64,000 nucleotides of DNA, from the NCBI GenBank assembly GCA_030998015.1, contig JARWMV010000249.1, positions 744,001 through 808,000 of the forward strand, given 5' to 3'. Below the pieces are notes generated by a model that was not told the origin of the DNA, searched no databases, and worked only from the letters and a program-made list of their open reading frames with translations. The translations under genes and the position numbers were made by a program. How positions within the stretch are numbered: position 1 is the stretch's first letter; every line of letters starts with the position of its first letter. This DNA is from Ceratorhiza oryzae-sativae. Lineage: Eukaryota; Basidiomycota; Agaricomycetes; Cantharellales; Ceratobasidiaceae. Below are positions 1 through 53,206 of this stretch, piece after piece.

Positions 1-359
1 AGGATCTGGTGGATTGTGATGATCTTTGGGCAGCAGATACCACTGAAGATTAGCTATCGATAGAGCATAAGATTGCTTTGATAGAATAAGTGGTTGCCAA
101 GATATGAGTGGTGTGATGTTGCAATCAATATCTCTTGATAAGAGGAAATATTGCAACCTCTGTATCTCTGAGATCTTATTGTAAAAAATTAATAAAATAT
201 GCATTGGAAAGTGGGAAATTTGTACTATTTAATGAAACTGAAAATAGTACAATTTGGAGCACATACAAATTCAAGTATTTCACAAATTAATTACAGAGGC
301 ATCACTTGAGGTTGGCAGAGCAAACTAAAATAATAGAAAAATGTTAGTGATCCATAACA
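1..359. repeat. Partial terminal repeat of the element A family, cut by window start
   Basis: This stretch matches 21860-22212 in the same orientation and 7804-8160 in reverse. It ends with the same terminus as the right end of element A (…ATCCATAACA). It is therefore the right-hand end of another element A copy, or a solo arm, whose remainder lies left of the window. It is AT-rich and almost free of CpG. No coding capacity is visible. Confidence 0.75.
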
Positions 360-637
360 TAAGTTGAACAAGCTATAAACATAGTCACATGACCTCAGCA
401 CTTATACTGATGCTTATCATGGTTATCTAACTCACTCCTGCAATTCTCTCCATTGTAACTTGGAGTGAGGAGTGAGTTATCATGTGAGCTCAGTGCTTAA
501 ATCATGTGACCCTCAGACCTTGTGCAGCTCTATAAGAGTCAGAGCCATAACAACCCTAAGAGTGACTTACTTAATACTTGTTTACACCACATGTGACCTA
601 TAACATACTGCAGACTGCAGAACAGTCTGACTCATAC
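360..637 (-). mobile_element. Decayed LTR remnant related to the LTR of element B (first part)
   Basis: Read on the minus strand, this resembles the element B LTR: it keeps the inverted pair ACTCACTCC / GGAGTGAGG (GC-richer in B), the TCACATGAC palindromes and the pattern of the GCGGCTC…GAGCC arm. Nearly all differences from B are C-to-T or G-to-A. It is interrupted by element C and resumes at 7580. I see no genes in it. Confidence 0.6.
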
Positions 638-1013
638 TGTCAACAACAACAAGTCAGGCAATGAGGAAAATGGTAAGAAAGTAAAAGAACTTGTATTCAA
701 TGAGAGGTCAAGTTCTTGAGGAGTCCTCTGCAAACTTGACCTGGTTTATATACATAGTACAAGCCACATCATAACAAACAAGTCTGTACAGTGAGTCACA
801 ACTGATAAGAGATAGAAGCAGTAGAAGTGACTGCGGAACTGCAGAATTTCACATCAGAGTTGAAATACATCTCAGTTATCAGTCCAGAACATCCCCTGAA
901 TCACATGACACAGATATACCATAAAAGGCAAGTATGTTTTGAAGATGATCTCATAAAATGTAATAAATTGAGAAAATATTATAGAGTGGATATATGCATG
1001 TCAGTTCATGACA
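638..1013 (-). repeat. 3' LTR of element C
   Basis: 376 bp, matching 7204-7579 along its whole length. It contains the polyadenylation-side copy of the R region. It differs from the 5' LTR at about 24 bases; nine differences are TG in one copy against CA in the other, and three are CG against TG or CA. Confidence 0.92.
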
Positions 1014-4000
1014 CTTCCCCCCTTCAAGGCACAGGGGTCATGGGGTGCCTTTGGATGTGACTTGACATAGTTGGCAATGAGTTCTGGTGCATTCACCAGG
1101 TCATCATAAGTTAACCATTGTTGCTTGTTGTAGCTGAGCCATTTGACGTAGTATTCAAAAATGTTAGACCTTTTGTTGTATTGTGACTTTATGATCTGTT
1201 CCACTTTGAATTCTTCTTCCCCTTCAGGAGTTACCACAGGTGGTGGTGGGGGAACCTGATGGCCATAGGGGTCATCTTTATATCTGGTGAGAAGTGAAAC
1301 ATGAAACACTGGGTGTATTTTCATGGTTATTGGTAGGTCCAATTTGAAAGCATGTGTGCCATGTTGTGCTACCACCTTGAATGGTCCAACTCTTTTGTGG
1401 GCCAGTTTCCTGGAGGCCTGTTGTGTCCGTATGTTCTTGGTATCAAGCCAGACTTTGTCTCCAACCTTAATAGCTTCTGGGGTCCAATGCTTCTGGTCAT
1501 AGTATTCCTTGATCCTCTGGTTTGCTATTTCCAGAGCTGCCCTAAGTTTGTTGTGGCCCTTTTGGAGCCATTCTGCATGGTTGTCTGCTAAGGGGAGTTC
1601 TTGTTCCTCCCTGTCCCCAACTGCCAGCCTTGGATGGAAACTGTAGTTTGCAAAGAATGGTGATTTGCCAGTCAAGGCATTGACACTGTTATTGTAGGCA
1701 AATTCAGCCAATGGTAGGAGTGAGACCCAGTTGTCTTGCCAGTCTGATACATAATGTCTGATGTACCCTTCCACTACTTGGTTGGCCCTTTCAGACTGGC
1801 CATCTGTCTGAGGGTGATATGCTGTGGAGTAGGAGGGTTTTATATCCAGCTGTTTGTATAAGTGCCTTAGGAATTTGGATGCAAAGTTGGGGCTGCAGTC
1901 TGAGATTGTTTTCTGTGGTAACCCATGAAGTTTCCATACATATGTTAGGAACAAGTTGGCGCAATCCATAGCACTGGCTTCTGATTGACATGGGATAAAG
2001 TGGACCATTTTTGTCAGGCAGTCGACAACTGTAAATATGGTGTCAAACCCCTCTGACAGGGGTAGCCCAGTGATCAGGTCATAGGTAATTTCTTCCCAAG
2101 GTTTTTCTGGTGCTGGTATTGGGTTTAGGAGCCCTGGGGGAACTTGGTTGCTGTGCTTGTTCCTGATGCATGACTCACAATGTGTGACATATTTGTTGAC
2201 TGATTTTTTCATTGATAACCATGTGTATTTGCAATTTAGCAATTCATATGTTCTGAACTGCCCTGGGTGCCCTGCTGCTGGGCTATCGTGACAGCTTTCG
2301 ATGACCAGTTTGCAAAGTTCTTTGTTATTTGGGACATAGATTTTGCCCTTGTGTTGTAAAAGTCCTTCATCCCATTCCCAATCTTTAACCTTCTCATTGT
2401 CATCTAGGGCTTTTAGCACTTTTGATAGGTGTTTGTCCCCTGGGATAGCATCCCTAATGAGTTGTTCCAGGTTGTGGTCTGGCATGATTGCTTGCAGGCA
2501 CAGTGATTTCAGCTCAAAAAATTGGTTTTGCACAAGCAGAGCTTGGCTCTCACCCCCCTCTTTAGGGATGTGTCTTGACAGCCTAGAGGGTATATCTGCC
2601 TGGCCATTCTTTGCCCCTTCAATGTATAGAATCTTGAATTTGAACCTGGATAGGAACTCATGCCACTGTGTGACTTGACTGTTCAGTGGCTGATTTGTCT
2701 TCCAATACTCCAAATTCTTGTGGTCACAAACAATGTTTACTGGGTGTTCAGCCCCTTCTAGTAAATGACGCCAGTGTTTGAGGGCCTTTATAATTGCCAG
2801 CATTTCTTTGTTGTAAATATCATAATTTCTTTCTGCTGGGACCATTGCCTTGGAGTAGTAGGAGATTGGGTGAAGCATTCTGTCTTCTCCATATTGCAAT
2901 AATATGGCGCCTGTGGTGTAGCCTGAGGCATCTGTTTCCAGAATGAATGGTTTGCTGGGTTCTGGCTGAATTAGGAGGGGGGCTTCCTTTAATTTCTGCT
3001 TCAGCAGGTTCCATGCCCAATCCCTTTCTTCTGTCCATTCCCACTTTATGTCTTTCTTGACAAGTTCATAAAGACATTTTGTGATTTTTGAAAAGTCCTT
3101 TATGAAGTGCCTTAACCAATTTGCAAACCCCAGCCCTTCCAGGACTTCGGTTGGGTTGGTAGGGGTTGGCCATTCAACAGCCTTTTCAACCTTGGCTGGG
3201 TCTACTTTAATTCCCTGGGGAGTCACTACTATTCCCAGGTAGTCCACTTTGGTGACATCAAAAACACATTTCTCCAGGGCGCAGTATAGGCTGGCCTTTT
3301 GAAGCCAATGCAAGACTTCTCTGACATGTTCGTTGTGTTCCTCTTGGTTTTTTGAGAATACTAATATGTCGTCCATGTAAATTACAACATAAATGCCTTC
3401 AATGTCCTGGAATTCCTCTCAGATCATGGCCATGAAGGTTCCCAGTGCATTCTTTTGGCCGAATTGCATGACTAAGGGCTCATACAGCCTGTATTTGGTC
3501 TTAAAAGCAGCCTTCCATTCATCTCCTTCCTGAATTTGTATGAGGTTGAAACCCCACTTTAGGTCAAACTTGGTGAATATCTTTGCCCCATGCAAGGTTT
3601 CTACAATGTCATTGATGCGTGGGAGTGGGTACACATTGGAGACAGTCATTTCATTTAGCTGCTGGTAGTCAATGCACATGCGCAGCTTCCCATTCTTCTT
3701 TTTAACAAATATGACTGGGGATGCCATTGGTGACCTTGAGGGTCTAATATGCCCTGCCTTCAATTGGCGGTCTAGGGTTTTGCGCAATTCTGTGTCTTCT
3801 TTAACACCCACACTGTATATGGGGCCATGCCTTGGTTTTGAATCTGGTTTCAGATCTATTTCCATATCCCACTTCCTATGGGGTGGTAGTGGTTGGACAT
3901 TGTCTTCTTCAGCAAATATTTTCTTGAACTCCCTGTACTTTACTGGAAGCAAGTCTAAAGAGTCCAACTGGAGCTCCTTGGGTTCATTCGCTTGCATGTG

Positions 4001-4531
4001 TAAGGGTTTTGTGATGCAATGCTTCAGGCATATTGGTGAGTTGAATTTCATGTCCTTTCCATCCCAGTCAATGTCCGGATTATGGAATTTGAGCCATGAC
4101 ATGCCCAGGACTAAATCATTTTTGCCAACATTCACAATGTAAGCACTGAGAATCTCTCAGTGCTCTTGAATGCACAACTCAAAGGTGCAATAATGGGTCA
4201 CAGACCCAGAGTCTATCTCCCTTCCATTGATTACTTGTAATCTCTTTGGTGTTTTTAGGGTGGTGGTAGGGATACAATATTGTTTAACAAGATCTTATTG
4301 GATAAATACTGATGTGGCCCCTGAATCAATCATGGCCCATCCATTGAATTTTTTCATATTATATGCAGACTTGTGTTTGGGGGTTGTGTGCAGTGGGAAT
4401 GCATGAAAGAAAAACTGAAGTTGTGATTGGTTTCCTAACAACATACATTCCATTCCCATATTTTTATTTTCATTCTGCACACTTTGTAACATAGTGCCCA
4501 AGACCGCCCCCCTGGCACAGTTTGAGCTCAT
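1001..4531 (-). pseudogene. pol: Element C pol (protease-RT-RNaseH-integrase-chromodomain), with three internal stops
   Basis: One reading frame runs from 4531 to 1001, broken by stops near 4295, 4166 and 3419. Protease has the DSG active site (about 4310). RT has the catalytic YMDD motif (about 3365-3380), followed by RNase H (motif LETDAS). Integrase has an HHCC zinc-binding region (about 2170-2290) and a DDE core. In that core the usual DRG after the second aspartate reads DCS, as expected from CpG-type decay. The C-terminal chromodomain (about 1050-1210) would bind modified histone tails and target integration to heterochromatin, as in other chromoviruses. The frame opens with ATG overlapping the gag stop (ATGA). 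The product is non-functional as it stands. Confidence 0.9.
1014..1025 (-). other. Polypurine tract of element C
   Basis: The minus strand reads GAAGGGGGGAAG immediately before the 3' LTR. This is the expected primer for plus-strand DNA synthesis in LTR elements. Confidence 0.8.
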
Positions 4532-5919
4532 TCTCTTACCAACTCCTTGTCAGTTGTTTCTACATCCTCCACAACCACTTTGTAACCTGACATCTTGGCT
4601 GAAGGGCATTTGGCGGCGGTATGACCACATCCTCCACAGTTATAGCAGGTATTCATTCCTTTTCCTTTTCCTGCACTATCCAGGTCCATTGCATCTGGAT
4701 CTTTTGCTTGGGGGGTTGCTGGTGGGTGATTGTCCTTTTTTATGTCCTTGAAGGACTCTTGTACATTGGAGTTACTACCATCATAGCAAACAGTAGGGAC
4801 AGTGAAGCCCTTGGTGTTGGGCCTGATGGCCACAATCTGGCCCTTGACTGCCCTGCCATCCTTGATCTTGTATATCCGCTCCCCACTCTTGAATTTTTCC
4901 TTTTGGGGGTTGCTTTGTGAGGTAGCTGTTAGCCTGCTTGACAAGGTGTTGTTGCTGCTGGACTTGTTAACCCCATGAGACATCCTTTTGCTACTGAACA
5001 ATATGAGGTGGCAGTCGATTTCCAAGGCTTGCTGAGTGAGCTGGGCAAAGGTTTTGGTGCAGGGGTTGTAGTTTTGGGCCACCATGCTGTCTGTTACATC
5101 TGATGATAGACCATCATAAAACTGGTCACGCATGGCCACATTGTTGTAGTTGAGCCCTGTTGAGTATAAATTGAATAGGGTGAGGTAATCTTGAACCATC
5201 TTGGATTGTTTAAGTTTCTGCCACTCATCGCAGTTATTTTCGGTGCAGTTTAGATCCCCATAACAGGTGGTAAACTCCTGCCAGAACAGGTTGGCATCAT
5301 GAAGCCATGGGATGGTGGTTCCAGGGTTCAGGATTTTGAATTCTTCATACAAGTTGACCCATTCAGCAGCAGATCCTTCAAGATAGGATGTGATAAAGGC
5401 AACCACTTGGTTGGCTGAGTGCCCACTCATATTTGTATTGATGTACCAGGCACATGCAATTCTGAATGAAATAGCATCTTTGCACTTTGTGCCATCAAAC
5501 CTTTGTGGGGTGGCCATCTTAACTTTTGCTGTTGACCCACTGGAGGGAGTAGTAGCTGCTGGTTGCAGCAGGGCCATGCTGGAGGAGGGTTGTGCTGGGG
5601 TGACTCTGGTGCCCCCCAAGGAGGTGTTGATTTGTGCCTCAATGCATGTAATGGTTGTTTGGAGAATTGCTAACATGCCAACCAGATTGTTTATATTGGT
5701 GGCCAGTCCTGCCATGTCAGCATCTATCTTCACTTGGTTTGTTGTAAGCTTGGCTTTGAGCAAGTCTGTGTAGGTTTTATTGTTGTGTTCAATGTCTCCA
5801 ATGTCATTTTGGAGGTTGTTGGTTTGTTCTTGCAATTCATCCATAGACTGGAGCATATAGATTACTTTGTCTTCATCAGACATATTTGCCCAAGCAGGGG
5901 CAGGGGCTGGTGATGCCAT
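4528..5919 (-). CDS. gag: Element C Gag with one CCHC zinc knuckle
   Basis: An intact 463-residue ORF. The N-terminal third is predicted helical and coiled-coil-like (LQEQTNNLQNDIGDIEHN). The central part is a retrotransposon Gag domain (the stretch around WVNLYEEFKI and LFNLYSTGLNYNN). Near the C-terminus (about residues 428-441) is a single zinc knuckle, CX2CX4HX4C (CYNCGGCGHTAAKC), which would bind the element RNA during packaging. It ends in TGA overlapping the pol ATG as ATGA, so pol may be made by termination-reinitiation rather than frameshifting. Gag is the only fully open gene in this copy. Confidence 0.88.
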   Translation of the reverse strand: MASPAPAPAWANMSDEDKVIYMLQSMDELQEQTNNLQNDIGDIEHNNKTYTDLLKAKLTTNQVKIDADMAGLATNINNLVGMLAILQTTITCIEAQINTSLGGTRVTPAQPSSSMALLQPAATTPSSGSTAKVKMATPQRFDGTKCKDAISFRIACAWYINTNMSGHSANQVVAFITSYLEGSAAEWVNLYEEFKILNPGTTIPWLHDANLFWQEFTTCYGDLNCTENNCDEWQKLKQSKMVQDYLTLFNLYSTGLNYNNVAMRDQFYDGLSSDVTDSMVAQNYNPCTKTFAQLTQQALEIDCHLILFSSKRMSHGVNKSSSNNTLSSRLTATSQSNPQKEKFKSGERIYKIKDGRAVKGQIVAIRPNTKGFTVPTVCYDGSNSNVQESFKDIKKDNHPPATPQAKDPDAMDLDSAGKGKGMNTCYNCGGCGHTAAKCPSAKMSGYKVVVEDVETTDKELVRE

Positions 5920-7186
5920 TTCAGGAGGGATTCAGGTAAATTCTAACAGTGACGGAGATGATAAGGAAGTACAGGAAATTGAGACTTGTTTTGGTAATAG
6001 AGGATTTTGGTTCCCTGCACAAGTCTATAAATTTTGAAGTTTCCAATCCCCTTGAACCTTAACCATGTGTTGTCCAAGTCCCAACTTTTGGTGTCTTGGC
6101 AACAATATGGGCACTCCACCCTCATCAATTTAGTTTGATCCCAAAGGAGTGCTTCCTTGGGGAGGGGTGATTTGGGCTGCCAGAAGGGGTGCTTCTTCCT
6201 GAATTGGCAAGCTTGTGCCACTTAGAAAGGTGGGGTGAGGAAGGTCTGATGGTGTTGAGAAGACAGGGAAGGCGTACTTGTGGGGTGAAATTGTTTCTCA
6301 GACTATGGCTTCTAGTCTGAGATGGTCTTGGAGGAGGGATAAGTAGTCCTCCTGGTGTTTGCGCAAACACTTGGTTAAGTACATGCAGCAGGCCTCAGCT
6401 TCATGAAGTTTTTTGCAGGTTTCTTTGTACTTATTTCAGTAATAGCAATACCTGTCTTGGAAATTTTCAATAGTGTTTAACAGGTGACAAAGAAGTTGTT
6501 GACCAAGGTTCTCCAGCTTATAGCTAGTTGTGGGGGATGGTGTAGTAGTATAAAAACTTGTCCTTTTTAGGACAATAGGGGCAGCATGCAGGGAAGGTGG
6601 CTCTGTTTGCTCAACAGCAAATTTTGCACTCAGGGGCACCCAGCTCAGTGACAAAGGCTTGTTGGGCTTGTCCAACTTTCTGGGGGTGGACTTTGACAAT
6701 TACCACATGGTTAAAATCAATGTGCCCAGCCTCTTCAAGGATATCTTCAACTGAGTTGAGGGTGAAGCAATGGATAGACAGGTGTCCAAACCACCCACAC
6801 AATCAGCAGCACTGGTCTTCTGTAAAAGGTTGTGCCACTTGAGGGCTGTGCATTCTGTTAGAGACGTACTTGAGCAAGAGCAAGATAAAAGAAAAATAGA
6901 CCCTTTCCTGAGTCTATTGGAATAGGAAGGTGACTTCCATTGCTCAACTACTTAAGGGCAATGAGCAACCCCACCTCTTGTCAATGGAAGAGATTAGAGA
7001 ACCAAAGCTTGTTACAATGTGTGAGGGACCTGGCTATGCAAGGTTTCACAGAGGCACGTATAGGGCAACAATGTCTTGTGGCTGTGGATAGGTGGAGTGG
7101 GATTGGGGAAGGCAATGGGGAGTTATCTTGAGACAATGCCAACGGTGTTCCAGACATATCCCAGACAACACTGAGACTTATGATTG
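5920..7186 (-). other. Element C long leader with fragments of a possible pre-gag ORF
   Basis: About 1.27 kb separate the primer site from gag, far more than the roughly 120 bases in element B. On the minus strand several broken frames show cysteine pairs (CKIC near 6620, CPYC in two places near 6570 and 6110) and a proline/serine-rich stretch (6125-6370). They may be remains of an extra ORF upstream of gag, but stops in every frame prevent a firm call. Confidence 0.35.
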
Positions 7187-7201
7187 TCAAGAACTTGACC
7201 T
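7187..7201 (-). other. Primer-binding site of element C, self-priming type
   Basis: The minus strand reads AGGTCAAGTTCTTGA just after the 5' LTR. It is perfectly complementary over 15 bases to the segment at 7271-7285 of the same LTR (and 705-719 of the other), which lies about 33 bases downstream of a TATA box and so at the predicted RNA 5' end. This is the layout of Tf1/sushi elements, which prime reverse transcription with their own mRNA 5' end instead of a tRNA. Confidence 0.7.
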
Positions 7202-7203
7202 GA

Positions 7204-7579
7204 TGTCAACGACGACAAGTCAGGCAACAAGGAAAATGGTAAGAAAGTAAAAGAACTTGTATTCAACAAGAGGTCAAGTTCTTGAGGAGTCCTCTGTGAA
7301 CTTGACCTGGTTTATATACATAGTACAAGCCACATCATAACAAACAAGTCCATACAGTGAGTCACAACCAATAAGAGATAGAAGCAGTAGAAGCAACTGT
7401 GGAACTGCAAAATTTCACATCAGAGTTGAAATACATCTTGGTTATCAGTCTGGAACATCCCCTGAATCACATGACACAGATATACCATAAAAGGCAAGTA
7501 TGTTTTGAAGATGATCTCATAAAATGTAGTAAATCAGGAAAATATTATAGAGTGGATATATGCATGTCAGTTCATGACA
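7204..7579 (-). repeat. 5' LTR of element C
   Basis: 376 bp, TG…CA. On the minus strand U3 runs from 7579 to about 7286, and R starts near 7285 judging from the TATA box and the primer-site complementarity. Confidence 0.92.
7311..7318 (-). promoter_or_regulatory. TATA box of element C 5' LTR
   Basis: TATATAAA on the minus strand, about 33 bases upstream of the segment at 7285 that pairs with the primer-binding site. The spacing fits a transcription start at that segment. Confidence 0.6.
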
Positions 7580-7803
7580 CATAGCTTGAAGGGTATATAA
7601 CTCATTGAAAGCAAGCCTGTGGACCCCAGCTTGCTTTATCTTGTCCACCACAGGGACCTTGACCATACTGTCATGGCCTAGACCATGAGCATGGCTTTAT
7701 CCTGATTTTATATTATTTTGTTTTGTTTTATCTCTATCTCCTAGTTTTTGGACAAGTCCTGTTTATTCAGATATATGCATAGAATTATTGACTGAGTCAT
7801 GTG
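7580..7803 (-). mobile_element. Decayed LTR remnant related to element B (second part)
   Basis: Continuation of 360-637 beyond the element C insertion. The pair around 7623-7645 (AGCTTGCTTTATCTTGTC on the plus strand) corresponds to the start-site region of the element B LTR in reverse orientation. The last 100 bases no longer match B. No genes. Confidence 0.55.
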
Positions 7804-8338
7804 TGTTATGGATTACTAACATTTTCTATTATTTTAGTCTGCTCTGCCAACCTCAAGTGGTGCCTCTGTAATTAATTTGTGAAATACTTGAATTTGTATG
7901 TGCTCCAAATTGTACTATTTTCAGTTTCATTAAATAGTACAAATTTCCCACTTTCCAATGCATATTTTATTAATTTTTTACAATAAGATCTCAGAGATAC
8001 AGAGGTTGCAATATTTCCTCTTATCAAGAGATATTGATTGCAACATCACACCACTCATATCTTGGCAACCACTTATTCTATCAAAGCAATCTTATGCTCT
8101 ATCGATAGCTAATCTTCAGTGGTATCTGCTGCCCAAAGATCATCACAATCCACCAGATCCTTGTGCCAGAATGGCCCAAAGATCATTAGAATCTTACTGG
8201 ACCATCAATTAAGATCTAATGACTCCAGTGAGTCAGGAGAGCCTTCCTAATTGACCCAGAAGCTTCTCTGACTCACTTTATGACTCACTGAGATGTAGCC
8301 TCTGTTCATTACATGTATATACTATGGTAATGTGATCT

Positions 8339-8343: not shown

Positions 8344-9121
8344 TGTCGTGACCCTCTGGAGGCTCCCTTGTGGAGCACTTAAGTAGTGGCTGCGTTGACG
8401 GTTTGGTGCTATGCAGTATGTATTGAGTGTTCTAGTTACAGTGTTTGCTATGGTCTATGGTGGTTGACGAGATAAAGCAAGCTGAGGCACCCAGTCTTGC
8501 TTTATCCTCCTTATATATACCTGTGGCTGCGGTGGCTGCGGACGTATTATCTAAGCACACTCCGCAGTAGGTGTAGGTTATGTACAGTACTATGGGTTAG
8601 GTAATTGTTTGTCTTAAGTTTGTGCGGCTCCGAATCTTATAGAGCCGCACGAGGTCCGAGGGTCATGTGACCTTTTTGGACTTAAGCACCCGGCGCTTAA
8701 TCGCTGAATAAGCGCCGAGGTCACGTGACAACTCGCTCCTCGCTCCAGGTAACATGGGAGAGAAACGCTGGAGCGAGTTCAGGGTAACCACCAGCGCTTA
8801 ATCATTGGTAAGCGCCGAGATCACGTGACAACTCGCTCCTCGCTCCAGGTAACATGGGAGAGAAACGCTGGAGCGAGTTCAGGGTAACCACCGGCGCTTA
8901 ATCGTTGGTAAGCGCCGAGATCATGTGACAACTCGCTCCTCGCTCCAGGTAACATGGGAGAGAAACGCTGGAGCGAGTTCAGGGTAACCACCGGCGCTTG
9001 ATCGTTAGGTAAGCGCCGAGATCACGTGACCTTGTTTATGGTTTGTTCCGCTTCGGGAAAAATGCCATAAATCTGTACAATATTCGGTTGTTAGGTTATG
9101 TCTGCTAGGCGGGTCATAACA
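8344..9121 (-). repeat. 3' LTR of element B
   Basis: 778 bp, TGTCGTGACC…GTCATAACA on the plus strand. It is almost identical to 18146-19022, with a few CG/TG or CG/CA changes, one T indel and one fewer 100-bp unit. A TATA motif (TATATATA) lies near 8513-8521. Confidence 0.93.
8692..9017. repeat. Tandem 100-bp units with hairpins in the left LTR of B
   Basis: Three full units start at 8731, 8831 and 8931. Each holds the inverted pair ACTCGCTCC…GGAGCGAGT, a perfect 8-bp stem GGCGCTTA…TAAGCGCC (8-base loop, at about 8692, 8793, 8893 and 8993) and a TCACGTGA palindrome. The right LTR has four units. The repeated hairpins are the most structured part of the element. Confidence 0.9.
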
Positions 9122-9137
9122 TTATCCCCCCCTTTGG
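9122..9137 (-). other. Polypurine tract of element B
   Basis: The minus strand reads CCAAAGGGGGGGATAA immediately before the 3' LTR. This fixes the LTR boundary and the minus-strand sense of the element. Confidence 0.75.
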
Positions 9138-9200
9138 ACATGTCTTGGGGGATCTCGAGGCATGTTTCTTTTTTCTGGGTTCTAAAAGTTTCTAAAAGGT

Positions 9201-9325
9201 ATCTCATATATCGAGGAGGTTAAGGGCGCTGGACTCGAACCAACAACCTTCCGTTCGATGTGTAATTGATTAGCTAGGAGATGATGAGTCAGGCTAGACC
9301 CCTTAACCTCTACGCTACATGAGAT
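9201..9325 (-). other. tRNA-like hairpin with pol III A and B box motifs
   Basis: The minus strand has TAGCGTAGAGG (9307-9317), matching the A-box consensus, and GGTTCGAGTCC (9231-9241), matching the B box, with a T-arm-like stem around the latter. The outer ends pair (ATCTCAT with ATGAGAT; GAGGTTAAGGG with CCCTTAACCTC). A proper D stem and acceptor stem do not form, so this is not a normal tRNA gene. It could be a tRNA-derived pol III promoter, a SINE-like fragment or a packaging/processing signal. Confidence 0.4.
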
Positions 9326-9420
9326 TACTTTCTCCTTGCTTATTTCCTTGTTTAAGCTTACTTCTCGACACATGGTCTGTGAATAACACAGCTTATACAA
9401 AGATAAATTATTTTTATTTT

Positions 9421-10702
9421 TTAAGGAAAAATAAAAAATGGCTTCCCTCCTGAGTATACCCAGTCTACGTTTTTGGATACCCATAAGTCCCCCTCTTCCC
9501 CCTCTATGTCCGTCCAACACTTCATTATGGCCGACCAGCTATTCCCCAGGATCACCGTCGGCCATACCTTCATTGACTTCACATGAGCATATCTGCCTGT
9601 GAAGTCTGCTTCGTACTGGCTCAGGGCTTTGAGCGAGTACTTCCCGTTTGACTGGACCATGTCATCCAGGATCCAGATGTCGGCGTCCTCCGACAGATTC
9701 CCCACGTTCCAGACGTTGCACATCCGGCTATGGGAGCCCTTGGATCGCGCATACGCCGTCTTCCCAGTTCCTGTTTCGCCTTCAATCACCAGGATGTGAT
9801 GGCACACGCCCCTCCCTCTCTTCTCAGCTCTTCCGCAAACCATCGGTCCGCCCTGTCGATGTGCGCCGGTCTTCTGGGACTTCCAACTCCACCGGGATTG
9901 CAGGCATGCATCCCCGGTCCTCCTTATACGTGTACTCAGCATATGCTCGTACCGAGTTCCACGTCGTCACCATCTGGAGGGGGCGCAGGCGCTTGAATGC
10001 CTGGTAGTACTCTTTTTTTGTCGCTGAGGCAACAATCTCCGCCCCGTCCTCCAGGTCCGCCTCCGCCCTCGACCTTTTCCTGCCCTTCCCCTTCACCAGG
10101 ATTTCCTCCAACCTTTCCAAGGTCAGGTCCCCCGCCATCAGCTCCTCTACCTCCTCGCCGTTAGCTCCGACATCCTTCCAGAGGTAGTTGAAAGCCTCCC
10201 TTGCAGGGTTGCCTCCTGGTCCGTCCTTGAGGTCCTTCAGCAGGATGTTGGGGTGTTGCCCCTCGAAGTCCCAGAACCGGGTGTTCTGGGTGTTCCAGCC
10301 GCCCTTCCGCTCCTGACTGATGGAGAGGGCGTGGACATGGAGGGGCCGGGCCAGGTCGTAGTTTGGTTCCTCGGGGTTGTGGCGTTCCACCACCAAAGTC
10401 GCCCAATGATTTGGCCGTTGGCGGCAGAACGCCTCGTATCGGGCGACGAGCCCACTTGAGGGCTGATCGCGTAGCTTCGACCAGGTCAGCAGCACCGCCC
10501 TGGTCTGGACGCGGAACCGAGGGGCCGGCGCGGTTTCGGTCGGCTCTTCGGACCCTCGATCCGTCGGCGTAGGCCGCATAGAAGCGGGTGAGGGGGCTCG
10601 GCTTGATACCGAGGGCGCTGGCGATGGCGACGCCGACCTCCGCCCTTCGCTTGATCCGCTTGGCTGGGGTGTTGCCGCGTTCGATCCATTTCCGCTTAGC
10701 AT
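9421..10702 (-). pseudogene. rep: CRESS-DNA-virus-type Rep: HUH endonuclease plus SF3 helicase, split by one frameshift
   Basis: Frame 1 (9824-10702, 292 residues) has a disordered serine/proline-rich start of about 60 residues, then rolling-circle motif I (VLLTWSK, about residues 70-76), motif II with the metal-binding HVH (LHVHALS, 121-127) and motif III with the catalytic tyrosine (YLWK, 173-176). A basic KGKGRKRSR stretch follows. Frame 2 (9421-9942) carries the superfamily-3 helicase: Walker A GETGTGKT, Walker B with paired Asp (WILDDM) and motif C ending in Asn (VILGN). The frames overlap at 9824-9942 and a single-base shift near 9840 separates them. Motifs are closest in style to geminivirus/genomovirus Reps. 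In a replicating virus such a protein nicks an origin hairpin and restarts synthesis; here it lies inside a retrotransposon. All catalytic motifs I can check are kept, so the frameshift is recent or a sequencing error. Confidence 0.85.
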
Positions 10703-10779
10703 CGTTTACAGTTTTAGAGGTATTTGGGGACTGGGAAGAGAGCATGAGAGTGTGGGTTATCTCGGGTCTTGTGCTTGTC

Positions 10780-10786
10780 TATATAA
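10780..10786 (-). promoter_or_regulatory. Possible TATA box for rep
   Basis: TTATATA on the minus strand, about 80 bases upstream of the first ATG of Rep at 10702. Position is plausible for a promoter of its own, separate from the LTR. Confidence 0.3.
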
Positions 10787-10999
10787 GCTGCAAGGTCCGT
10801 TTTAATTGTCACATGACTCCGTCTTGCATTTGTTGTGATCACATGACCTTATTTTGGTGATGACGCATCTCCGAGGGGTGCCCTCCCATCCGTTCCTCTG
10901 CGTCGGCCTTGATCCTCGCTACGCTCGGGGCCTCCGCTCCCCCACTTCGGTCGGTGCCCCCTCTCCGACCCCTCCGGTAGTTAGGGGATAGCGTATATT

Positions 11000-11125
11000 C
11001 ACGTGACTAGGCTAGGTCATGTGATTCCTGTGCTTTGTTGTTTGTTTTCTGGCAGGTGGTCACATGACTAGGCTAGGTCATGTGATTCCCGTGCTTTGTT
11101 GTTTGTTTTCTGGTAGATGGTCACA
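11000..11125. repeat. Two and a partial copies of a 61-bp hairpin repeat
   Basis: Copies start at 11000 and 11061. Each contains CACRTGAC…GTCATGTG, an 8-bp stem around the loop TAGGCTAG. A decayed third copy follows near 11121. The same CACGTGAC core occurs throughout the LTR repeats of element B. Confidence 0.8.
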
Positions 11126-11243
11126 TGTCTGTTGGTGTCACCTGACCAGACCTTGTTTTGATGTTTGTGCACGTTATTGTGTTGCACTGTGATTTTTTAA
11201 TGTTCATGGTTTTGTTGTTTTCCTTCCTCATCCCGTCTTTACT

Positions 11244-11785
11244 ATGCGTGTTATTTCCCTTAACTACAATCCCCTTGACTGCACCTGCTGGTCTCTTCCT
11301 GAGGGGGAGTACTGCGCCTACTGTGATGCCGTGTGCGACGCCTCCCTTGAAGACTTCTATGGAGGTGTTGGGGACTGGTTCTTCTGTGGGGTGCCTGGTA
11401 TGTGTGTTCGTTCTTCGTCGTTCTCACATAGCTAACTTGTTCTGTAGAAGAGCGCATCCTCCTTGATGGTCGGGCCCATGAGGCCACCCTTGAGCGTGTC
11501 TGGGCGCTTGTTGATCAGGACTGCCGGTTATTTGAGGAGCGGCAACACCAGGCTGCCCTTGCTGAGTTTTTTGAGGAGGGCTCAGCCCCTTTGTTCGATG
11601 AGGCCTCACCCTTTGCGGCTTCTGGTTCTGGATGTTTCCAGAACTATATGGCTGATCTCCCAGGGGGGGAGGCCCCCTGGCTGTTGCCTGAGAACCGGGC
11701 CGGTGGTTCTGCGGCCCGTACTATTAGGAAGGATAAGAAGGCAAAAAAACCCTATACCCGGCCCCTCAAGGGCAAGAAAAAATAG
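11244..11785 (+). CDS. Spliced unknown protein on the antisense strand of element B
   Basis: Exon 1 is 11244-11397 and exon 2 is 11448-11785, joined across a 50-base GT…TAG intron that keeps the frame (163 residues). The N-terminus is cysteine-rich (CTC, CAYC and two further Cys within 20 residues), compatible with a small zinc-binding fold. The middle is acidic and helical (WALVDQD, EEF). The C-terminus is lysine-rich (KKAKKP, KGKKK), suggestive of nuclear or nucleic-acid binding. An intron running against the direction of the retroelement RNA cannot be spliced out during transposition, which explains its survival and shows the gene is meant to be transcribed antisense. It is divergent from rep. 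I recognise no family. Confidence 0.6.
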
Positions 11786-11828
11786 AAACATTTTGAAATG
11801 TATTATTATATGATTATGAAAATTATTC

Positions 11829-12683
11829 TTAAGACATTCCAAAAAACGTGTGATAGGCCCGATAATCACAGGGGCTCCGGGGCCAGCAGGGGCACTTCCT
11901 CCAAGGCGCCCCCAGCTCATCCTCCCATTTGGCCCAATCCGTTTGGACTCCCTCTTGGGCCGGGTCCGGGGTTGGTTCCTTTATCGTTACTCTCGGCTCC
12001 TCCTCCTTCACCACCAGGGACTCCAGGCTTGCCGTGAGGCTCGACATATCTGTGTCGTAACCGTGCAGGTTTGGGCGTACCTTCACCCAGTTACGGAAGT
12101 CGGCCAAGTTTGCTTCCTTCAACCTGATGGCAGTAAACATTTCATCAGTGGTAGTGGCCTCAAGCAGTCCCACATACGGTGCCGCCGGTGCCAGCTTCCA
12201 CTGCTCCAACAGTGCCTTTGCCCGGCGCTCCACCTCCCAGTCCCCTCCGTCTGCCATTTGGCCTGTGGCCCTCCTCTGTTGCCTTGCTGCCTTGGTCACC
12301 ACGTCGACTGTTGGTCCCACGATATTGTCGACGACATACATCGGTGTTCTTAACAAGGCGTTTCTCGTCGTTGGCTTCCGGCTTCCATGCCATGTCAGGA
12401 CCCCTAACCTGGGATCCAGGTACTTGTCATCGTCAATCCAGTTCCTTTCATCCCTTAACTTCTTTGGGATGTACACTAGGTTAGCCCCTGGCAACAGTCG
12501 TTCGGCGTACCTCTGGGCGTCTTCCACACTGGAGCAGTACATCCCTGGTTTAGGACGATTTTCCCTGCCAGGGTAGGGTGCTGGCCGCCTGGTGGTGGGT
12601 GGCTGCCGAAGTGGGGCCACCTGATTTTCGGCAAGTGGGGTGTAACGGTTGGGATGTGCGATTGGGTGAGTGACGAAAGGCAT
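11829..12683 (-). CDS. Unknown 284-residue protein of element B cargo
   Basis: An intact ATG-to-stop frame in the sense strand of the element, 87 bases after the chromodomain stop, ending about 45 bases from the convergent plus-strand gene. The first 50 residues are proline/arginine-rich and disordered. The middle (about 60-200) looks folded and contains a glutamate-rich helical part (WEVERRAKALLEQW). No transmembrane segment, signal peptide or catalytic motif is visible, so an envelope role is unlikely. It may be read from a spliced or internal transcript. Function unknown. Confidence 0.55.
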   Translation of the reverse strand: MPFVTHPIAHPNRYTPLAENQVAPLRQPPTTRRPAPYPGRENRPKPGMYCSSVEDAQRYAERLLPGANLVYIPKKLRDERNWIDDDKYLDPRLGVLTWHGSRKPTTRNALLRTPMYVVDNIVGPTVDVVTKAARQQRRATGQMADGGDWEVERRAKALLEQWKLAPAAPYVGLLEATTTDEMFTAIRLKEANLADFRNWVKVRPNLHGYDTDMSSLTASLESLVVKEEEPRVTIKEPTPDPAQEGVQTDWAKWEDELGAPWRKCPCWPRSPCDYRAYHTFFGMS

Positions 12684-12770
12684 GCTTTTGGGGTTTCGCA
12701 GGTGTGTTGTGGTGCAAGTGAGGTAGTAGAGCGGGCTCTGGCCTTTCTTGGGTATCCTGGATGGCTCCTT

Positions 12771-15700
12771 TTAAAGCTTTCCAGATCCTCGTTTGGTTCT
12801 CTTTGGCCTGCCTTTCGAGTCACCTGAGTGCTGACTTGTCTTGACTGGCATTGGTGCGTCTGGTAAGCGCCTTTGCAAGTCATTTAGAACCTCTTTCATG
12901 TCAGCAAACTTGCTGGCACGTTCCATTGTGTCTTCTATTGGGTCGTAGCCCTTCCATCTGATTTGGTAAAACAGCTCGCCATTCCGCCATTCATAATTTG
13001 CAATGTGGTCCACCTCGTATTCCTCCTCTCCTTTTTCCGTTATGATTGGTGGTGGCTTGGCCTGCCTTCTTCGGAAGTCTTTATCTTCTGTGAATGGCGA
13101 GAGGAGATTTACATGGAATACATTGTGTACACGTATGTTTTAGGTAGGTCCAGGCGATATGCATGGGATGAGATCTTTTCTGTGATTTCAAAGGGCCCCC
13201 CTTTTCGGTTGTCCAGTTTCTTGGAGGGTCTCTTGGACGAGAGGTTTGTTAGGAGCAGCCAAACCTTGTCTCCTACCTTGAATTCCCTCCCTTTCTTTCC
13301 ATTTGTTGGTGTAATTCCATTGAGGCTCTTGCCTCATCCCATACCTTTTCCATTTGATTACGCATGTTGTCTGCAGCGGGTGCCTCAGATGGTTCTTCTC
13401 CCTCTCGGACAACCCATCTTGGGTTTTTTCCATATACTGTTTCAAATGGGGTTTGTCCTGTTGTAGCATTTACGTGGTTGTTATGGCAGAATTCGGCAAT
13501 GGGTAACCATTTTACCCAATCATCTTGTCTATAATTGCAGAAGGTTCTTAAGAACCCTTCTACCCATTGATTTGTCCTTTCCGACAGACCATCTGTTTCT
13601 GGATGGAAAGCAGTGGAGAATCTGGGCTTTGTCCCAATTCCTTTGTATAGGGCCTTTAGGAATTGGCTGTTAAAGGTTGGCCCTCGGTCTGAGACAGTGG
13701 TTTCTGGGGTCCCGTGATGTCTCCATACTTCCCTTATGAATATTTCTGCCAGTTCTTCTGCATTGGTGCTCTCCAGACATGGTACAAAATGGGCCTGCCG
13801 GGAAAGCGATCTACAACTGTCAAATACTGTCGTACCCCTTTGAGACAGGTAATTTGACGATGAAATCATATGCGACATCTGCCCATGGTTTCCATGGGAT
13901 TGGTAAGGACTTCAGGGAGTGCCTTGTTTGTGTCCTTTGCTTCTTTGACACGTTTCACAAGATTCCACGTATCGGTTTACTTGGGCCTTCATTCCTGGCC
14001 AATAGTAATCCCTTGATAGTAATTCTAGTGTTCGGGCTTGTCCCTGATGACCTGCCACTGGGGCGTCATGGCACTCCTCAAGGAGACTCAACCTCAAGTC
14101 CTTGTCATCTGGGATGTAGAGCCTATCGTCATACCTTAATAGGCCCTCCTTCATTTCATACCGTCTAAATTCCTTCTGTACTGAGGGCGGTAGTTGTTCT
14201 TATTTGCCACACTCAGCCTTAAGGATCTGATAGATTCGTCTTCTTCCTGAGCTTCTTTAAGCTCTTCCCAGAAATTCCCCTGTACTTCTGCCATGAAACC
14301 TATGAACCTTTCTTCTGGAATCATGATCTGTGGTTCCATAGGGGTATCCCCATGGTCGCTCCTTCTGGAAAGGGCATCTGGCTTCTGTGAGAGTTTCCCT
14401 GGTCTACACAATCTGAAAATTGAAGGGTGCCAGAGTGAGATACCATCTGGCATGCCTTCTATTCCACATCTGGGCATTTTGCCAGTACTGGAGGTTCCTA
14501 TGGTCAGTGTATATCACAATAGGTTCCTCTGTCCCTTCTAAGTATAACCTCCAGTGCTCTAAGGACCTAACAATTGCAAGCAACTCCTTGTCGTAGGTGT
14601 CATAATTTTTCTCTGGTGGGGTGAAGCTCTTCGATAGGAAGGCAATTGGATGCAATCGGTTGTCATCACCCTTTTGGCTTAGTACCGCCCCCATGGCCAC
14701 TCCTGAGGCGTCTGTTTCCAGTATGTATGGCCTGTTTGGGTTTGGGTGGATCAGGACCGGTTCTCTTGCTACTGCTTCTTTGATAGCTTCAAATGCTTCC
14801 TGTTGTTTTCTTTCCCACAGGAATTTGACATCTTTTTGGGTGAGATCTGTGAGGGGTTTGGCTAAGGTACTAAACTTCTCTATCCACCTTCTATAGAACC
14901 CCACGAAGCCTAGGAAGGCTTGGACTTCTTTTACTGTGTTAGGTTCTGGCCATTCTAGAACTGCCTTTACCTTTTCCTTTTCCATCGATATCCCTTCTGG
15001 GGATATGACAATTCCAATGAAGCTTACCTCCTTCACAAAGAACTGACACTTGTGTGGTTTGAGGAAGAGGTGGTTTTCCCTCATTCTTCTTAACACTTCC
15101 CTGACATGTTGTACGTGTTCTTCCCTGTTTCTGGAAAACACTAGTACATCGTCCATGTAGATTACCACATAATCGTCTATTATATCACGGAACTTTTCCA
15201 TCATGAACCTGGTAAAGGTTCTTGGTCCTTCTTTTACTCCGAATGGCATGACCAAGCATTCAAACTGGCCTTCTCCTGTCCTGAAAGCTGTTTTCCATTC
15301 GTCTCCCTCTTTTACCCTGATGTTGTTGAACCCCCATCGAACATCCATTTTTGAATAGATGGTTGCATCCTTCAGTCTCTCAATCAATTCTATTTGGATT
15401 GGAAGTGGAAACCTGTCTGGCTTGGTGATGTCATTCATCTTACGGTAGTCGACTACCAACCTAAGCCCTCCATCTGCTTTGTTCACATAGAAACAGGGTG
15501 CAGCTACAACTGACTGGCTGGGCCTTATTTTCCCGTTTCTTAGTTCCTCCTCTAGGTACTCCCTGAGCGCCTTTGTTTCTGCTGGTGACATACTGTACCT
15601 CTTTGCAGGCTTTGGCAGCTCCGCTCCCTCGATCAGGTCCATTTTGAAGTCTAGGTTACCTCGGTGGGGTGGAAGTTCTCGGAAACCTTCTTCCCCAAAT

Positions 15701-16080
15701 AGGTCTTCAAAATCCCTAAATTCTTCTGGGATTGTAGGCTTTCACTTGCTGCCCTTGCCTTGATTTCGTCTGGGTATGAGATGGTAAGGTCTTTCCAATC
15801 TATGATAGGTTCTGCTTCTTCAAGCCATTCTTTCCCTAGGACTATGTCTGTGTCACCTAGGGTCATTACATAAAGGGAGCATTTTAGTGTCTTCCCTTCC
15901 ACTTCGATGTTTAGTTCTGCCCTTTCTTCTATGGCATCCTTGATTTCATTTCCATCAATGGCCACAATTGATTTCTTGTGTTTGAGGGGAGTGGTTGGAA
16001 TCCCTTTTTCCCTTGAATAGGCCTTATCGATGAAGTTGGTTGAAGATCCTGAGTCAATCAGCGTTTAGCTGGTTCCATGA
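12771..16080 (-). pseudogene. pol: Element B pol (protease-RT-RNaseH-integrase-chromodomain), several frameshifts
   Basis: Protease with a DSG site at about 16050 runs to 15651. The frame changes near 15745 into RT-RNase H (to 14404), with the catalytic YMDD motif near 15155 and RNase H motif LETDASG. It shifts again near 14440 into the linker, then the HHCC zinc region of integrase (13912-14154; EECHDAPVAGH … CETC). A shift near 13910 removes the first part of the catalytic core; the second D (SDRG) and E (GLSER) are present in 13273-13878. A further shift leads to the C-terminal chromodomain (12771-13013), a histone-mark reader with the aromatic WKGYDP motif. At least four frame changes make this copy unable to transpose by itself if the sequence is correct. 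Confidence 0.88.
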
Positions 16081-16191
16081 TTCCCTCTACCGTAGTGTAT
16101 ATTATTGATTGATTACTAGACTTCTTGAGGTAACATACATCTGCGGTAGGGGTTATATTGGGGTCCTCCAACATGGAAGTGGTAGGACCAA

Positions 16192-18026
16192 TTAGTTTTC
16201 CGACTCAGAGCTGCTTTCTTCCTCAACTTGTCTGCTGGCCTTCCCTTGTATCTTAGCTTTGTCGTAGGTCCACTGGCCTCGGCACTCCTTCAGGACATGC
16301 CCTGATTTACCGCATTTGATACAGAGTCCTTCTTTCCTTCGCCTGTCCTTTTCACTGTTTGGTATCCTTACCATGTTGTTGGTTTGGGTATTCCCCTGTT
16401 TGCCGCTGGTCCCTAAAGGCTTGTTTCCCCCTTGTTTGTATTTCGCTGGTGCCCAGGTTGAATTTGATGAGTTGCTGGTCCTTGTATTCATTTTCTGGTT
16501 TGCAAACTGCATGTCATCCATTTTGCAGGCAAAGTCAATTAATTGATCTAAGGTATATGATGGACCTTCAGCCTCATTTGCCAGTACTTCAATCCTTAAG
16601 ATCTCTTGTCGTACTTCGGGTTTTAACCCTTCCCTGAATTGGTCCTTGAGGCTTCCTGGTTCCAGTCTACCTCTTGGATCAGGATCCGGAATTGGGTAGC
16701 ATAATCCAATGCGCTCTTGGTCTGTGTTAATTTCCTTAGTTTCCGGATGGTCTTTTCCTTTATGACTGGGTCATTAAAAGCATCCAGGAATCCCTTCCTG
16801 AAATCCTTCCAGGATGCAAGAATACCTGTGTGTTCGCCTGCTAGTAGTTTCCGGCGGTAAGGTTGTGCCCAGTTTGCTGCTTCCCCATCCTCCATGTTCA
16901 TTAGCACAGCAGATATCTTTTTTCGGTCATCAAAGGCTGATTCGTCATAGTCAGCAAAGAAAAGTTCCATGCTGATTATGAAGTTCTCTGCTTCCTTCCC
17001 CTTTTTCCCATTAAATTTGCTGGGTCTCCCTAGTCTCGCCTCCTTAGGAGTGTGGTTTGCAGCAAGGGTAGGTTGGTTTGCTTGGGATGGAGGTTCTGTT
17101 CGGGGTCTTATTGTGGACTCAGCCTGGAAGGTTCTTCCCAGAAAAGGTGTTCGTACTGGGGAGGCTGAGGGGGATCGTGAGGGGCTTCCTATGACCACCC
17201 TAGTTCTTCCCCTGGTTTCTTCTGTCCTTTCCCTTGGCCTTCCTGCTTCAGTTGTTTTCCGGAGCTCATTTCCTAGATCGGTTACCCGTTGTTCTAGTGC
17301 GATTAGGATCTCCCCTGTGTTTTCGGTTTTCTTCTCTAAGCTTTCGAGCTTTCGCTCTTGCATTCCCAGTACCCGGTTTATTTCCATGGAGATGTCCTTT
17401 AATTCTTTTATCAGGTTCCCCATTTCTGCTTTTAGGTCGTCCTGGTTCTTTGCCACATAGAGGACATTTTTGTTGGATGTTTCCATAGACCTTACCATCC
17501 AGTCCACGTTTCCTTCTTGTCGGGTTAGTGATATTTGACACTGATTTATACCCGTGATTGCCTTTTCTAGTTCCCTATGATTATTGTCTCTAAGTTCCTT
17601 GAGCCCCGCCCTGATGGCCGTGGCAATGGTGTGAATAGGGTTGGCAGTGGCTATGGTTCCGGGACCTGGCTGGGGTTGTGTCCTTGCCTCTTCCGCCAAG
17701 GCCGTGCCTTGTTCGTATATGGTTCGGGTCATATCTTCTACCTCATCCCTCTCTGGATTTGAGATATCTTCTGGGTCTGGATTTATCAGGTGAATTGGCG
17801 GTTGAGGGCTGCGGAGTGGTATTCCCCCTATTTCCCCTCCCAGGATGGGGGCCCGAGTGGGGTTGGGTTGAGCCACTGGTCGTGGGTTTTGTGGCAACCC
17901 CCCTGGCATTCCTTGGAGGGTCTCATCTGGGTTACCTTCAGCCTCTGGGGAAGCAATGGGTTTGGGTGATTGTGGCCTACTATTTGCCACTCTGCTTTGA
18001 GATCGAGTTTGTGGTCTCTGTGACAT
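16192..18026 (-). pseudogene. gag: Element B Gag, split by one frameshift
   Basis: The first frame (16623-18026, 467 residues) has a long polar N-terminus with a coiled-coil-like middle and a retrotransposon Gag core (around WAQPYRRKLL and FRKGFLDAFND). It shifts near 16655 into the second frame, which ends at 16192 after one zinc knuckle CX2CX4HX4C (CIKCGKSGHVLKEC). The knuckle would package the element RNA. The ATG at 18026 is about 120 bases from the primer site, a short leader. A single-base error or mutation explains the split. Confidence 0.85.
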
Positions 18027-18131
18027 AGTTTCTTTGTTCTCTTATGTATCACAGGAGTTAGCTGGTTTTCTCGTGTACTCAGCCCTTAGTATCTGTGCAG
18101 TATACTTATGTTCGCCACTAGTTAAGTTAAG

Positions 18132-18143
18132 AGCTTGCTTTAT
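18132..18143 (-). other. Primer-binding site of element B, self-priming type
   Basis: The minus strand reads ATAAAGCAAGCT within three bases of the 5' LTR. It is perfectly complementary over 12 bases to 18274-18285 in the LTR, about 36 bases downstream of a TATA box (18313-18321). The arrangement mirrors that of element C. Confidence 0.65.
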
Positions 18144-18145
18144 AA

Positions 18146-19022
18146 TGTCGTGACCCTCTGGAGGCTCCCTTGTGGAGCACTTAAGTAGTGGCTGCGTTGA
18201 CGGTTTGGTGCTATGCAGTATGTATTGAGTGTTCTAGTTACAGTGTTTGCTATGGTCTATGGTGGTTGACGAGATAAAGCAAGCTGAGGCATCCAGTCTT
18301 GCTTTATCCTCCTTATATATACCTGTGGCTGCGGTGGCTGCGGACGTATTATCTAAGCACACTCCGCAGTAGGTGTAGGTTATGTACAGTACTATGGGTT
18401 AGGTAATTGTTTGTCTTAAGTTTGTGCGGCTCCGAATCTTATAGAGCCGCGCGAGGTCCGAGGGTCATGTGACCTTTTGGACTTAAGCACCCGGCGCTTA
18501 ATCGCTGAATAAGCGCCGAGGTCACGTGACAACTCGCTCCTCGCTCCAGGTAACATGGGAGAGAAACGCTGGAGCGAGTTCAGGGTAACCACCGGCGCTT
18601 AATCGTTGGTAAGCGCCGAGATCACGTGACAACTCGCTCCTCGCTCCAGGTAACATGGGAGAGAAACGCTGGAGCGAGTTCAGGGTAACCACCGGCGCTT
18701 AATCGTTGGTAAGCGCCGAGATCACGTGACAACTCGCTCCTCGCTCCAGGTAACATGGGAGAGAAACGCTGGAGCGAGTTCAGGGTAACCACCGGCGCTT
18801 AATCGTTGGTAAGCGCCAAGATCACGTGACAACTCGCTCCTCGCTCCAGGTAACATGGGAGAGAAACGCTGGAGCGAGTTCAGGGTAACCACCGGCGCTT
18901 AATCGTTGGGTAAGCGCCGAGATCACGTGACCTTGTTTATGGTTTGTTCCGCTTCGGGAAAAATGCCATAAATCTGTACAATATTCGGTTGTTAGGTTAT
19001 GTCTGCTAGGCGGGTCATAACA
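18146..19022 (-). repeat. 5' LTR of element B
   Basis: 877 bp with four 100-bp hairpin units (starting about 18531, 18631, 18731 and 18831). It is otherwise near-identical to the 3' LTR. The ACAAG target duplication follows at 19023-19027. Confidence 0.93.
18313..18321 (-). promoter_or_regulatory. TATA box of element B 5' LTR
   Basis: TATATATAA on the minus strand, correctly spaced for a start near 18285, the segment complementary to the primer-binding site. Confidence 0.55.
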
Positions 19023-53090: not shown

Positions 53091-53206
53091 CCAGAACGGT
53101 AAAAAGAGCTACATAATCCGAAAAAAGCGGTGATGCAAAACCCAAAAGGAGAATAAATATACACCTGCCCCTTACGACGCAAAAAAAAAAAACCCCCCGT
53201 CAAAAT

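Follow-up and report, generated by a model that had tools for sequence, protein, structure and literature searches.

A Ty3 retrotransposon family of Ceratorhiza oryzae-sativae with a putative virus-type Rep module

Introduction

The families Genomoviridae and Geminiviridae belong to the order Geplafuvirales. Genomovirus genomes are described, in the excerpted text of PMC10821283, as ambisense and 2200-2375 nt long, and Table 2 of the same excerpt gives their Rep motifs as LLTYAQ, THYHA, FDVDGYHPNIL, DYATK, GPTRTGKTSWAR, VFDDM and N. Here we describe element B, a Ty3/chromodomain long terminal repeat (LTR) retrotransposon of 10.7 kb in the fungus Ceratorhiza oryzae-sativae, which carries a gene for a putative Rep protein of this type. 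The element occupies positions 8344-19022, minus strand, of a 64,000-nucleotide stretch of DNA (the window; positions 744,001 to 808,000 of contig JARWMV010000249.1, assembly GCA_030998015.1). Its Rep has motifs of the same kind and in the same order as those in the excerpted genomovirus table, GRS included, and together with a small antisense gene it makes up a roughly 2.4-kb ambisense pair, which is the layout and size of genomoviruses (PMC10821283, same excerpt). Unlike its counterparts in either virus family, however, this Rep sits integrated in a retrotransposon and is too divergent to pass the Pfam cut-off. The partner gene is short (163 aa) and has no recognised similarity to a capsid gene, no homology search having been made with it, and the canonical nonanucleotide was not found in scans of the window; a different origin is possible.

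Rep genes have also been described in other mobile elements, of which rotifer Terminons and a DNA transposon of Tuber are the nearest precedents. Terminons, Penelope-like retroelements of rotifers, include a rolling-circle replication initiator among their accessory genes, and the excerpted review suggests that this association may point to circular intermediates (PMC6431247). Terminons are telomeric, reach 40 kb and work without LTR integrase chemistry, whereas element B belongs to the Ty3 LTR elements, measures 10.7 kb and has an ambisense module that is fixed. The geminivirus-like transposon of Tuber melanosporum, present in many copies with 42 Rep genes or remnants, resembles element B in being a multicopy fungal mobile element with a geminivirus-like Rep (PMC3198968, excerpt). 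According to the same excerpt, it is nevertheless a DNA transposon, with transposase open reading frames (ORFs), 37-bp terminal inverted repeats, an interrupted Rep and neither LTRs nor reverse transcriptase. Helitrons differ again: they combine HUH with a superfamily 1 (SF1, Pif1-like) helicase in about 1500 aa and have no LTRs, whereas the Rep of element B measures about 428-442 aa, has motifs of superfamily 3 (SF3) type, lies between LTRs and gives no Helitron Pfam match.

Other LTR retrotransposons resemble element B in carrying an additional enzyme ORF downstream of pol. Bdelloid Juno and Vesta elements have captured an ORF3 (PMC5408684), and an orchid Ty3 element has an m6A demethylase domain (PMC9289625). 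Their cargoes are esterase, exonuclease or demethylase, unlike the Rep of element B. For the bdelloid ORF3, the excerpt reports no clear departure from neutrality (PMC5408684), whereas the cargo of element B has ratios of nonsynonymous to synonymous change (dN/dS) of 0.04-0.14. In a nematode, a retrotransposon has captured a nodavirus-like element and so likewise carries a viral gene, but one from an RNA virus and in another host (PMC5177903). An initial reading of the window by a model, made from the letters alone (the sequence-only reading), knew of no described element of this layout. Our search of the open-access PubMed Central literature, with subscription papers outside its range, found no LTR element with a Rep.

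Rep is a standing part of the element family

Element B has the defining structure of the Ty3/Gypsy group: two LTRs with TG...CA ends, a short target-site duplication (TSD; 5 bp, ACAAG), a polypurine tract (PPT), and domains in the order gag, protease, reverse transcriptase, RNase H and integrase, with the chromodomain at the integrase end (Table 1). Pfam matches for reverse transcriptase and RNase H are well above cut-off; those for protease, integrase and chromodomain are weak and fall in the correct order. The stretch from chromodomain to PPT holds the cargo, namely an ORF of 284 aa, a plus-strand antisense gene, an intergenic region of 0.5 kb and Rep. With TSD-flanked LTRs outside, and the HUH and SF3 motifs located in this stretch, the cargo lies within element B, as had been proposed.

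The cargo recurs far beyond the window. Across the genome (48.8 Mb, 253 contigs) it matched at 42 places (40 of 204 candidates scored). Sequence patterns found the chromodomain at 140 sites, the start of the 284-aa ORF at 118, Rep at 146 (154 with a second pattern) and the PPT-LTR junction at 153. All control counts were 0, including that of the reversed Rep pattern (0 vs 146), and 61 homologous proteins were found. A local misassembly of the Rep segment, named beforehand as one way in which the claim could fail, is excluded because the same cargo stands in many places on many contigs.

Spacing between sites gives the same picture, for contigs C1-C233 and among the sites listed there. A PPT lay downstream, within 12 kb, of 81 of 97 chromodomain sites, at 2.8-4.7 kb in 73 pairs, about 5.1 kb in four and beyond 9 kb in four. 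Cargo-free copies, the other case named against the claim, would show a spacing of about 0.35 kb, and none of the 81 pairs did. Rep lay 1.0-2.2 kb upstream of 87 of 99 PPT sites and downstream of 83 of 97 chromodomain sites. Conversely, 100 of 105 Rep sites stood at element spacing, 70 with both partners, 17 with a PPT only and 13 with a chromodomain only; five had neither. Fourteen chromodomain sites lack a listed Rep. For these, and for PPT sites of the same kind, the Reps may lie beyond the sites listed, the copies may be divergent, or the losses may be true.

We compared 21 copies, comprising the window copy and 20 of the 42 matched places. Ten of the fetched copies are near the window (about 97-99%) and ten belong to a second type (about 86-87%). 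In all 21, the cargo has the same position and surroundings. The cargo-bearing element is bounded by 5-bp TSDs in four copies (ACAAG in the window, GACAG in C14, TTGTG in C57 and GGTAC in C22), so the further LTR-flanked copies that had been proposed as a check do exist; a TSD was not seen in C186, a deletion derivative. TSDs, spacing and paired genome sites together show that Rep has moved with the retroelement many times. The Rep cargo, present in almost every copy that could be checked, is a standing part of the element family, and not an addition to one copy.

Reading frame and identity of Rep

The motif chain of Rep runs LLTWS, HVHAL, WDFEGNHPNIL, YLWK, GETGTGKTAYAR, ILDDM, VILGN. By eye, and without a statistical score, these are rolling-circle replication motifs I, II and III with GRS, followed by Walker A, Walker B and motif C, ordered in one protein. 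Across the 21 copies, YLWK and LDDM are kept in 21, HVHA in 20, TWSK in 19 and GTGKT in 18. The sequence-only reading had placed HUH endonuclease and helicase in two frames, which describes the window copy correctly and fails as a gene structure. Eight of the 21 copies have an uninterrupted Rep frame, which measures about 428-442 aa counted from the first Met (6/11 of the first type, 2/10 of the second). The Rep of the window copy is therefore frameshifted, and splicing across two frames is ruled out by the same eight copies.

All 61 homologous proteins are strong matches (weakest E 1.2e-68). The closest come from Ceratobasidium species, with up to 78% identity in partial matches. Ceratobasidium sp. 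AG-Ba has relatives about 429 aa long in three clusters, with 38, 17 and 13 members, and further relatives come from other isolates of Ceratobasidium; the remaining sources are tagged jgi and lgn, and are taken to be metagenomes. The proposed profile check with Gemini_AL1, Viral_Rep and RNA_helicase (SF3) gave no match above cut-off. Gemini_AL1_M matched 8 of 25 homologs at E <= 1, with a best value of 0.001 in one homolog, and Gemini_AL1 matched one of 25 (0.23), none of them above the curated cut-off; Viral_Rep and RNA_helicase did not match Rep at all. Scanning the genome with PF08283 gave three weak matches, none above cut-off. Relatives sought in IMG/VR, plasmids, phages, PDB sequences and PHROGs yielded none that was convincing, and a profile search of PDB sequences yielded no Rep. 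Scanning viral contigs for the Walker A pattern gave 120 stretches, most of which came from long contigs.

Partner genes and the intergenic region

The spliced antisense gene of the sequence-only reading stands as a plus-strand gene. All 18 copies in which exon 1 was found have the intron signals GTATGT and CTAAC, all 21 copies have the acceptor anchor, and 12 of 21 have the complete exon 2 frame of 111 codons. No known domain was recognised in the predicted protein, with which no homology search was made. Because the gene is antisense, its intron would survive passage through the genomic RNA. The 284-residue ORF is likewise present in the cargo, without the fixed end that had been assigned to it, since its end varies between copies. 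A search for its homologs among 1033 candidates gave none at E <= 0.001. From the intergenic region, Rep and the antisense gene run in opposite directions, and they jointly span 9421-11785. Within the intergenic region, a conserved GC-rich stretch (10925-11012) is a candidate origin, and a CCCCT/AGGGG hairpin stem is kept in 21 copies.

Purifying selection on the cargo

Comparison between the two types used all 21 copies, giving 110 cross-type pairs with no filter for intactness. In the helicase part of Rep (9792-9421), dN/dS is 0.042, against 2.2 and 2.0 in the shifted frames, and over 10201-9860 of Rep it is 0.085. The 284-aa ORF (12239-11960) gives 0.135, against 1.7 in both shifted frames. 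For the core of antisense exon 2, 35 pairs of full-length frames give dS of 0.536 and dN of 0.056, or a dN/dS of about 0.10. Restricting the comparison to copies with an open Rep leaves the ratio at 0.08-0.09 in 12 cross-type pairs; the ratios scatter more when both copies are of the same type (0.09-0.44 for the first type, 0.68 for the single second-type pair).

These substitution patterns show that the Rep linker and helicase, the 284-aa ORF and the antisense gene are under purifying selection in their measurable parts, with dN/dS of about 0.04-0.14. Because selection acts on them, Rep and its partners appear to help the element or its carrier.

Two cargo types and deletion derivatives

The two divergent cargo types reside, as mosaics, in nearly identical pol bodies, with reverse transcriptase regions in both types 97-100% identical to that of the window. 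Followed towards the 3′ LTR, cross-type divergence changes in steps: low to about 12240, 12-46% to 11521, 1-8% over 11520-10201, and 9-37% from there to the LTR. In the low-divergence tracts, divergence between types is about the same as divergence within types. Such mosaics match what template-switching recombination between two lineages would be expected to produce. An overprinted second frame was considered as a cause of conservation in the HUH half and is ruled out: the tract of low divergence ends abruptly (edges near 12240, 11521 and 10200) and extends over non-coding sequence, as expected from recombination. Separately, a group of Rep sites has GGAAY in place of GGAGC, which points to a third type of cargo.

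Among the 20 fetched copies, four (L010, L012, L015 and L017) are deletion derivatives with one common junction, at which 17223 meets 13582 and 10 nt overlap. They have lost most of gag-pol and kept the cargo, with Rep open in three of the four. Since all four share one junction, the derivatives have multiplied without a pol of their own. As they were found via the cargo, they no more than hint at a need for it in cis.

Layout of the element and its surroundings

Table 1. Features of element B in window coordinates
Feature	Position	Strand	Basis and remarks
3′ LTR (TG...CA), with 100-bp tandem repeats inside	8344..9121	-	LTR match; TSD ACAAG on outer side
PPT, AAAGGGGGGG	9126..9135	-	Read directly; PPT-LTR junction pattern at 153 sites genome-wide
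Rep, putative SF3 helicase part (GETGTGKT, ILDDM, VILGN)	9421..9942	-	Frame differs from HUH part in window copy, frameshift
Rep, putative HUH endonuclease part and linker (LLTWS, HVH, WDFEGxHPNIL GRS-like, YLWK)	9824..10702	-	Motif order against genomovirus table (PMC10821283, excerpt)
Intergenic region, divergent between Rep and antisense gene	10739..11243		TATATA box on Rep side
Pair of direct repeats, 61 bp each, containing TCACRTGAC...GTCATGTGA palindromes	10999..11120		93% identical
Antisense gene, 163 aa predicted	11244..11785	+	Exon 1 11244-11397; intron 11398-11447 (GTATGT...CTAAC...TAG); exon 2 up to stop at 11785; Cys-containing N-terminus, basic C-terminus
ORF of 284 aa, downstream of chromodomain	11829..12683	-	dN/dS 0.135 over 12239-11960
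Chromodomain	12771..13013	-	Pfam Chromo 5.5e-5, just under cut-off
Integrase part (rve)	13273..13878	-	Pfam rve 0.002, just under cut-off
Reverse transcriptase and RNase H	14404..15642	-	Pfam RVT_1 4.2e-34, RT_RNaseH 1.4e-36, RT_RNaseH_2 3.6e-38
Protease-like frame	15651..15965	-	Pfam RVP_2 0.0065, under cut-off
gag frames, CCHC zinc knuckle (CIKCGKSGHVLKEC)	16192..18026	-	Read directly
Primer-binding position adjoining 5′ LTR, self-complementary to LTR position 738	18131..18145	-	12-nt complement AGCTTGCTTTAT
5′ LTR	18146..19022	-	LTR match

The 100-bp tandem repeats of the LTRs (8609-9108 and 18410-19009) differ in copy number between the two. The 12 nt at the primer position are complementary to a hairpin-forming sequence in the element's own LTR, where that sequence directly follows a TATATATAAG box; the arrangement is like that of self-priming Tf1-type elements. 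A similar hairpin is present in the neighbouring element A. Between Rep and the PPT lies a tRNA-like stretch (9222-9318, minus strand) with A-box-like and B-box-like sequences, strongly divergent between the cargo types; neither ARAGORN nor Rfam called a tRNA gene there. Rfam matches of the cargo to sul1 (E 0.037) and MIR1861 (0.42) were under the gathering scores, and are taken as chance.

Another LTR element lies within window positions 1-8161, with LTR repeats at 638-937 and 7204-7503 and gag-pol on the minus strand. It is enclosed by inverted arms of 340 bp (1-340 and 7822-8161; 99% complementary), and is perhaps an insertion into another mobile element. The window also contains two GC-rich islands (35001-37000 and 53001-56000; 0.59-0.67 vs about 0.47).

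What might Rep do for the element?

LTR elements form circles from their own cDNA. We consider that Rep probably serves the element, and that it does so perhaps by rolling-circle copying of the element's extrachromosomal DNA, which is proposed because an active HUH-helicase protein would most simply be used to copy circular DNA. The best explanation, which we advance tentatively, is a Ty3 lineage with a standing 3′ ambisense Rep module whose Rep replicates this DNA. The module consists of the 284-aa ORF and two genes that diverge from the 0.5-kb intergenic region as an ambisense pair, namely the Rep, of putative geminivirus/genomovirus type, and the small antisense gene. Rep would nick and unwind extrachromosomal element DNA such as cDNA circles, with its nicking site, the origin, in the intergenic region. 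A single product of reverse transcription could in this way be multiplied into several DNA molecules that either integrate or persist in the nucleus. In favour of this explanation are the TSDs around cargo-bearing copies, the constancy of the cargo, the selection on its genes, the retained nuclease and helicase motifs, the deletion derivatives that kept the cargo, the genomovirus-like layout and size of the pair, and the suggestion of circular intermediates made for Terminons. Of the ideas in the sequence-only reading, capture of a rolling-circle replicon by the retroelement may hold, and use of Rep on extrachromosomal circular DNA is the possibility taken up here. The bolder form of this proposal, a hybrid element with two engines that combines reverse transcription with Rep-driven rolling-circle amplification from its own origin and is thus partly a DNA replicon, is possible, and we hold it with less assurance.

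Several observations weigh against replication of element DNA by Rep. The assignment to the geminivirus/genomovirus type rests on motifs and weak Pfam matches, and two predicted Rep structures (mean pLDDT 32 and 44) were too poor for use. Rep is broken in 13 of the 21 copies, the window copy among them, and 12 of the 99 listed PPT sites have no listed Rep. The canonical nonanucleotide TAATATTAC is absent from the window, and the variants tested are absent from 9121-12700. The CCCCT/AGGGG stem sits in the recombination-shared tract, where conservation proves little. The HUH segment (10522-10210) has few changes and a dN/dS of 0.52, a value that is uninformative because the segment lies inside the recombined tract; the case for this half depends on conservation in Ceratobasidium and on motif retention (YLWK 21, HVHA 20 and TWSK 19 of 21). 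Finally, the deletion derivatives came from a search with the cargo, and are a biased sample.

An alternative that we regard as unlikely is that Rep acts in trans on the host, driving DNA synthesis or regulating the element's promoters without replicating element DNA; geminivirus Rep in plants offers a comparison for such action. Selection on helicase and linker would suit any protein function, no origin was recognised in the scans of the window and of 9121-12700, and the shared divergent intergenic region looks promoter-like, with TATATA on the Rep side. However, pure regulation does not demand the retention of HVHA in 20 and YLWK in 21 of 21 copies, or their retention across species.

More doubtful is the idea that the 2.4-kb pair of Rep and antisense gene is a parasite replicon riding the retrotransposon and still replicating or moving by itself. 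It would account for an ambisense pair of genomovirus size and for a cargo that is mosaic and more diverse than pol. Yet only five of the 105 listed Rep sites have neither a chromodomain nor a PPT listed as partner, and for at least one of the five (C56) element pol and the 284-aa ORF lie nearby. The constant position and surroundings in all 21 copies read also speak against independent movement, as do mosaic breakpoints in the 284-aa ORF, outside the pair, which resemble those of retroviral template switching.

We think it very improbable that Rep and its partners antagonise competing ssDNA viruses or host silencing, and so protect the element or the host. Conservation and expression are on record for some endogenous Rep genes (PMC3198968, excerpt), and a defensive role would fit selection in the absence of a recognised origin, but the motifs kept in the nuclease and the helicase point to an enzyme that is active. 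Passive carriage of a functionless virus fragment, captured once and copied by chance, could explain the 13 broken copies, but is nearly excluded by cross-type dN/dS of 0.04-0.14 against shifted-frame controls near 2, and by open frames of about 429 aa in Ceratobasidium too.

Implications

Retroelements and rolling-circle replicons are treated as if they had nothing to do with each other. An LTR element of high copy number with a virus-type Rep under purifying selection is a natural case of both engines in one unit, and makes it testable whether Rep can amplify the extrachromosomal DNA of a retroelement. Element B is, moreover, an example of how genes of ssDNA viruses can be maintained and dispersed in the genomes of fungi. 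Taken as a whole, the family suggests that an RNA-copied fungal retrotransposon with a standing DNA-virus-type Rep may replicate in two ways.

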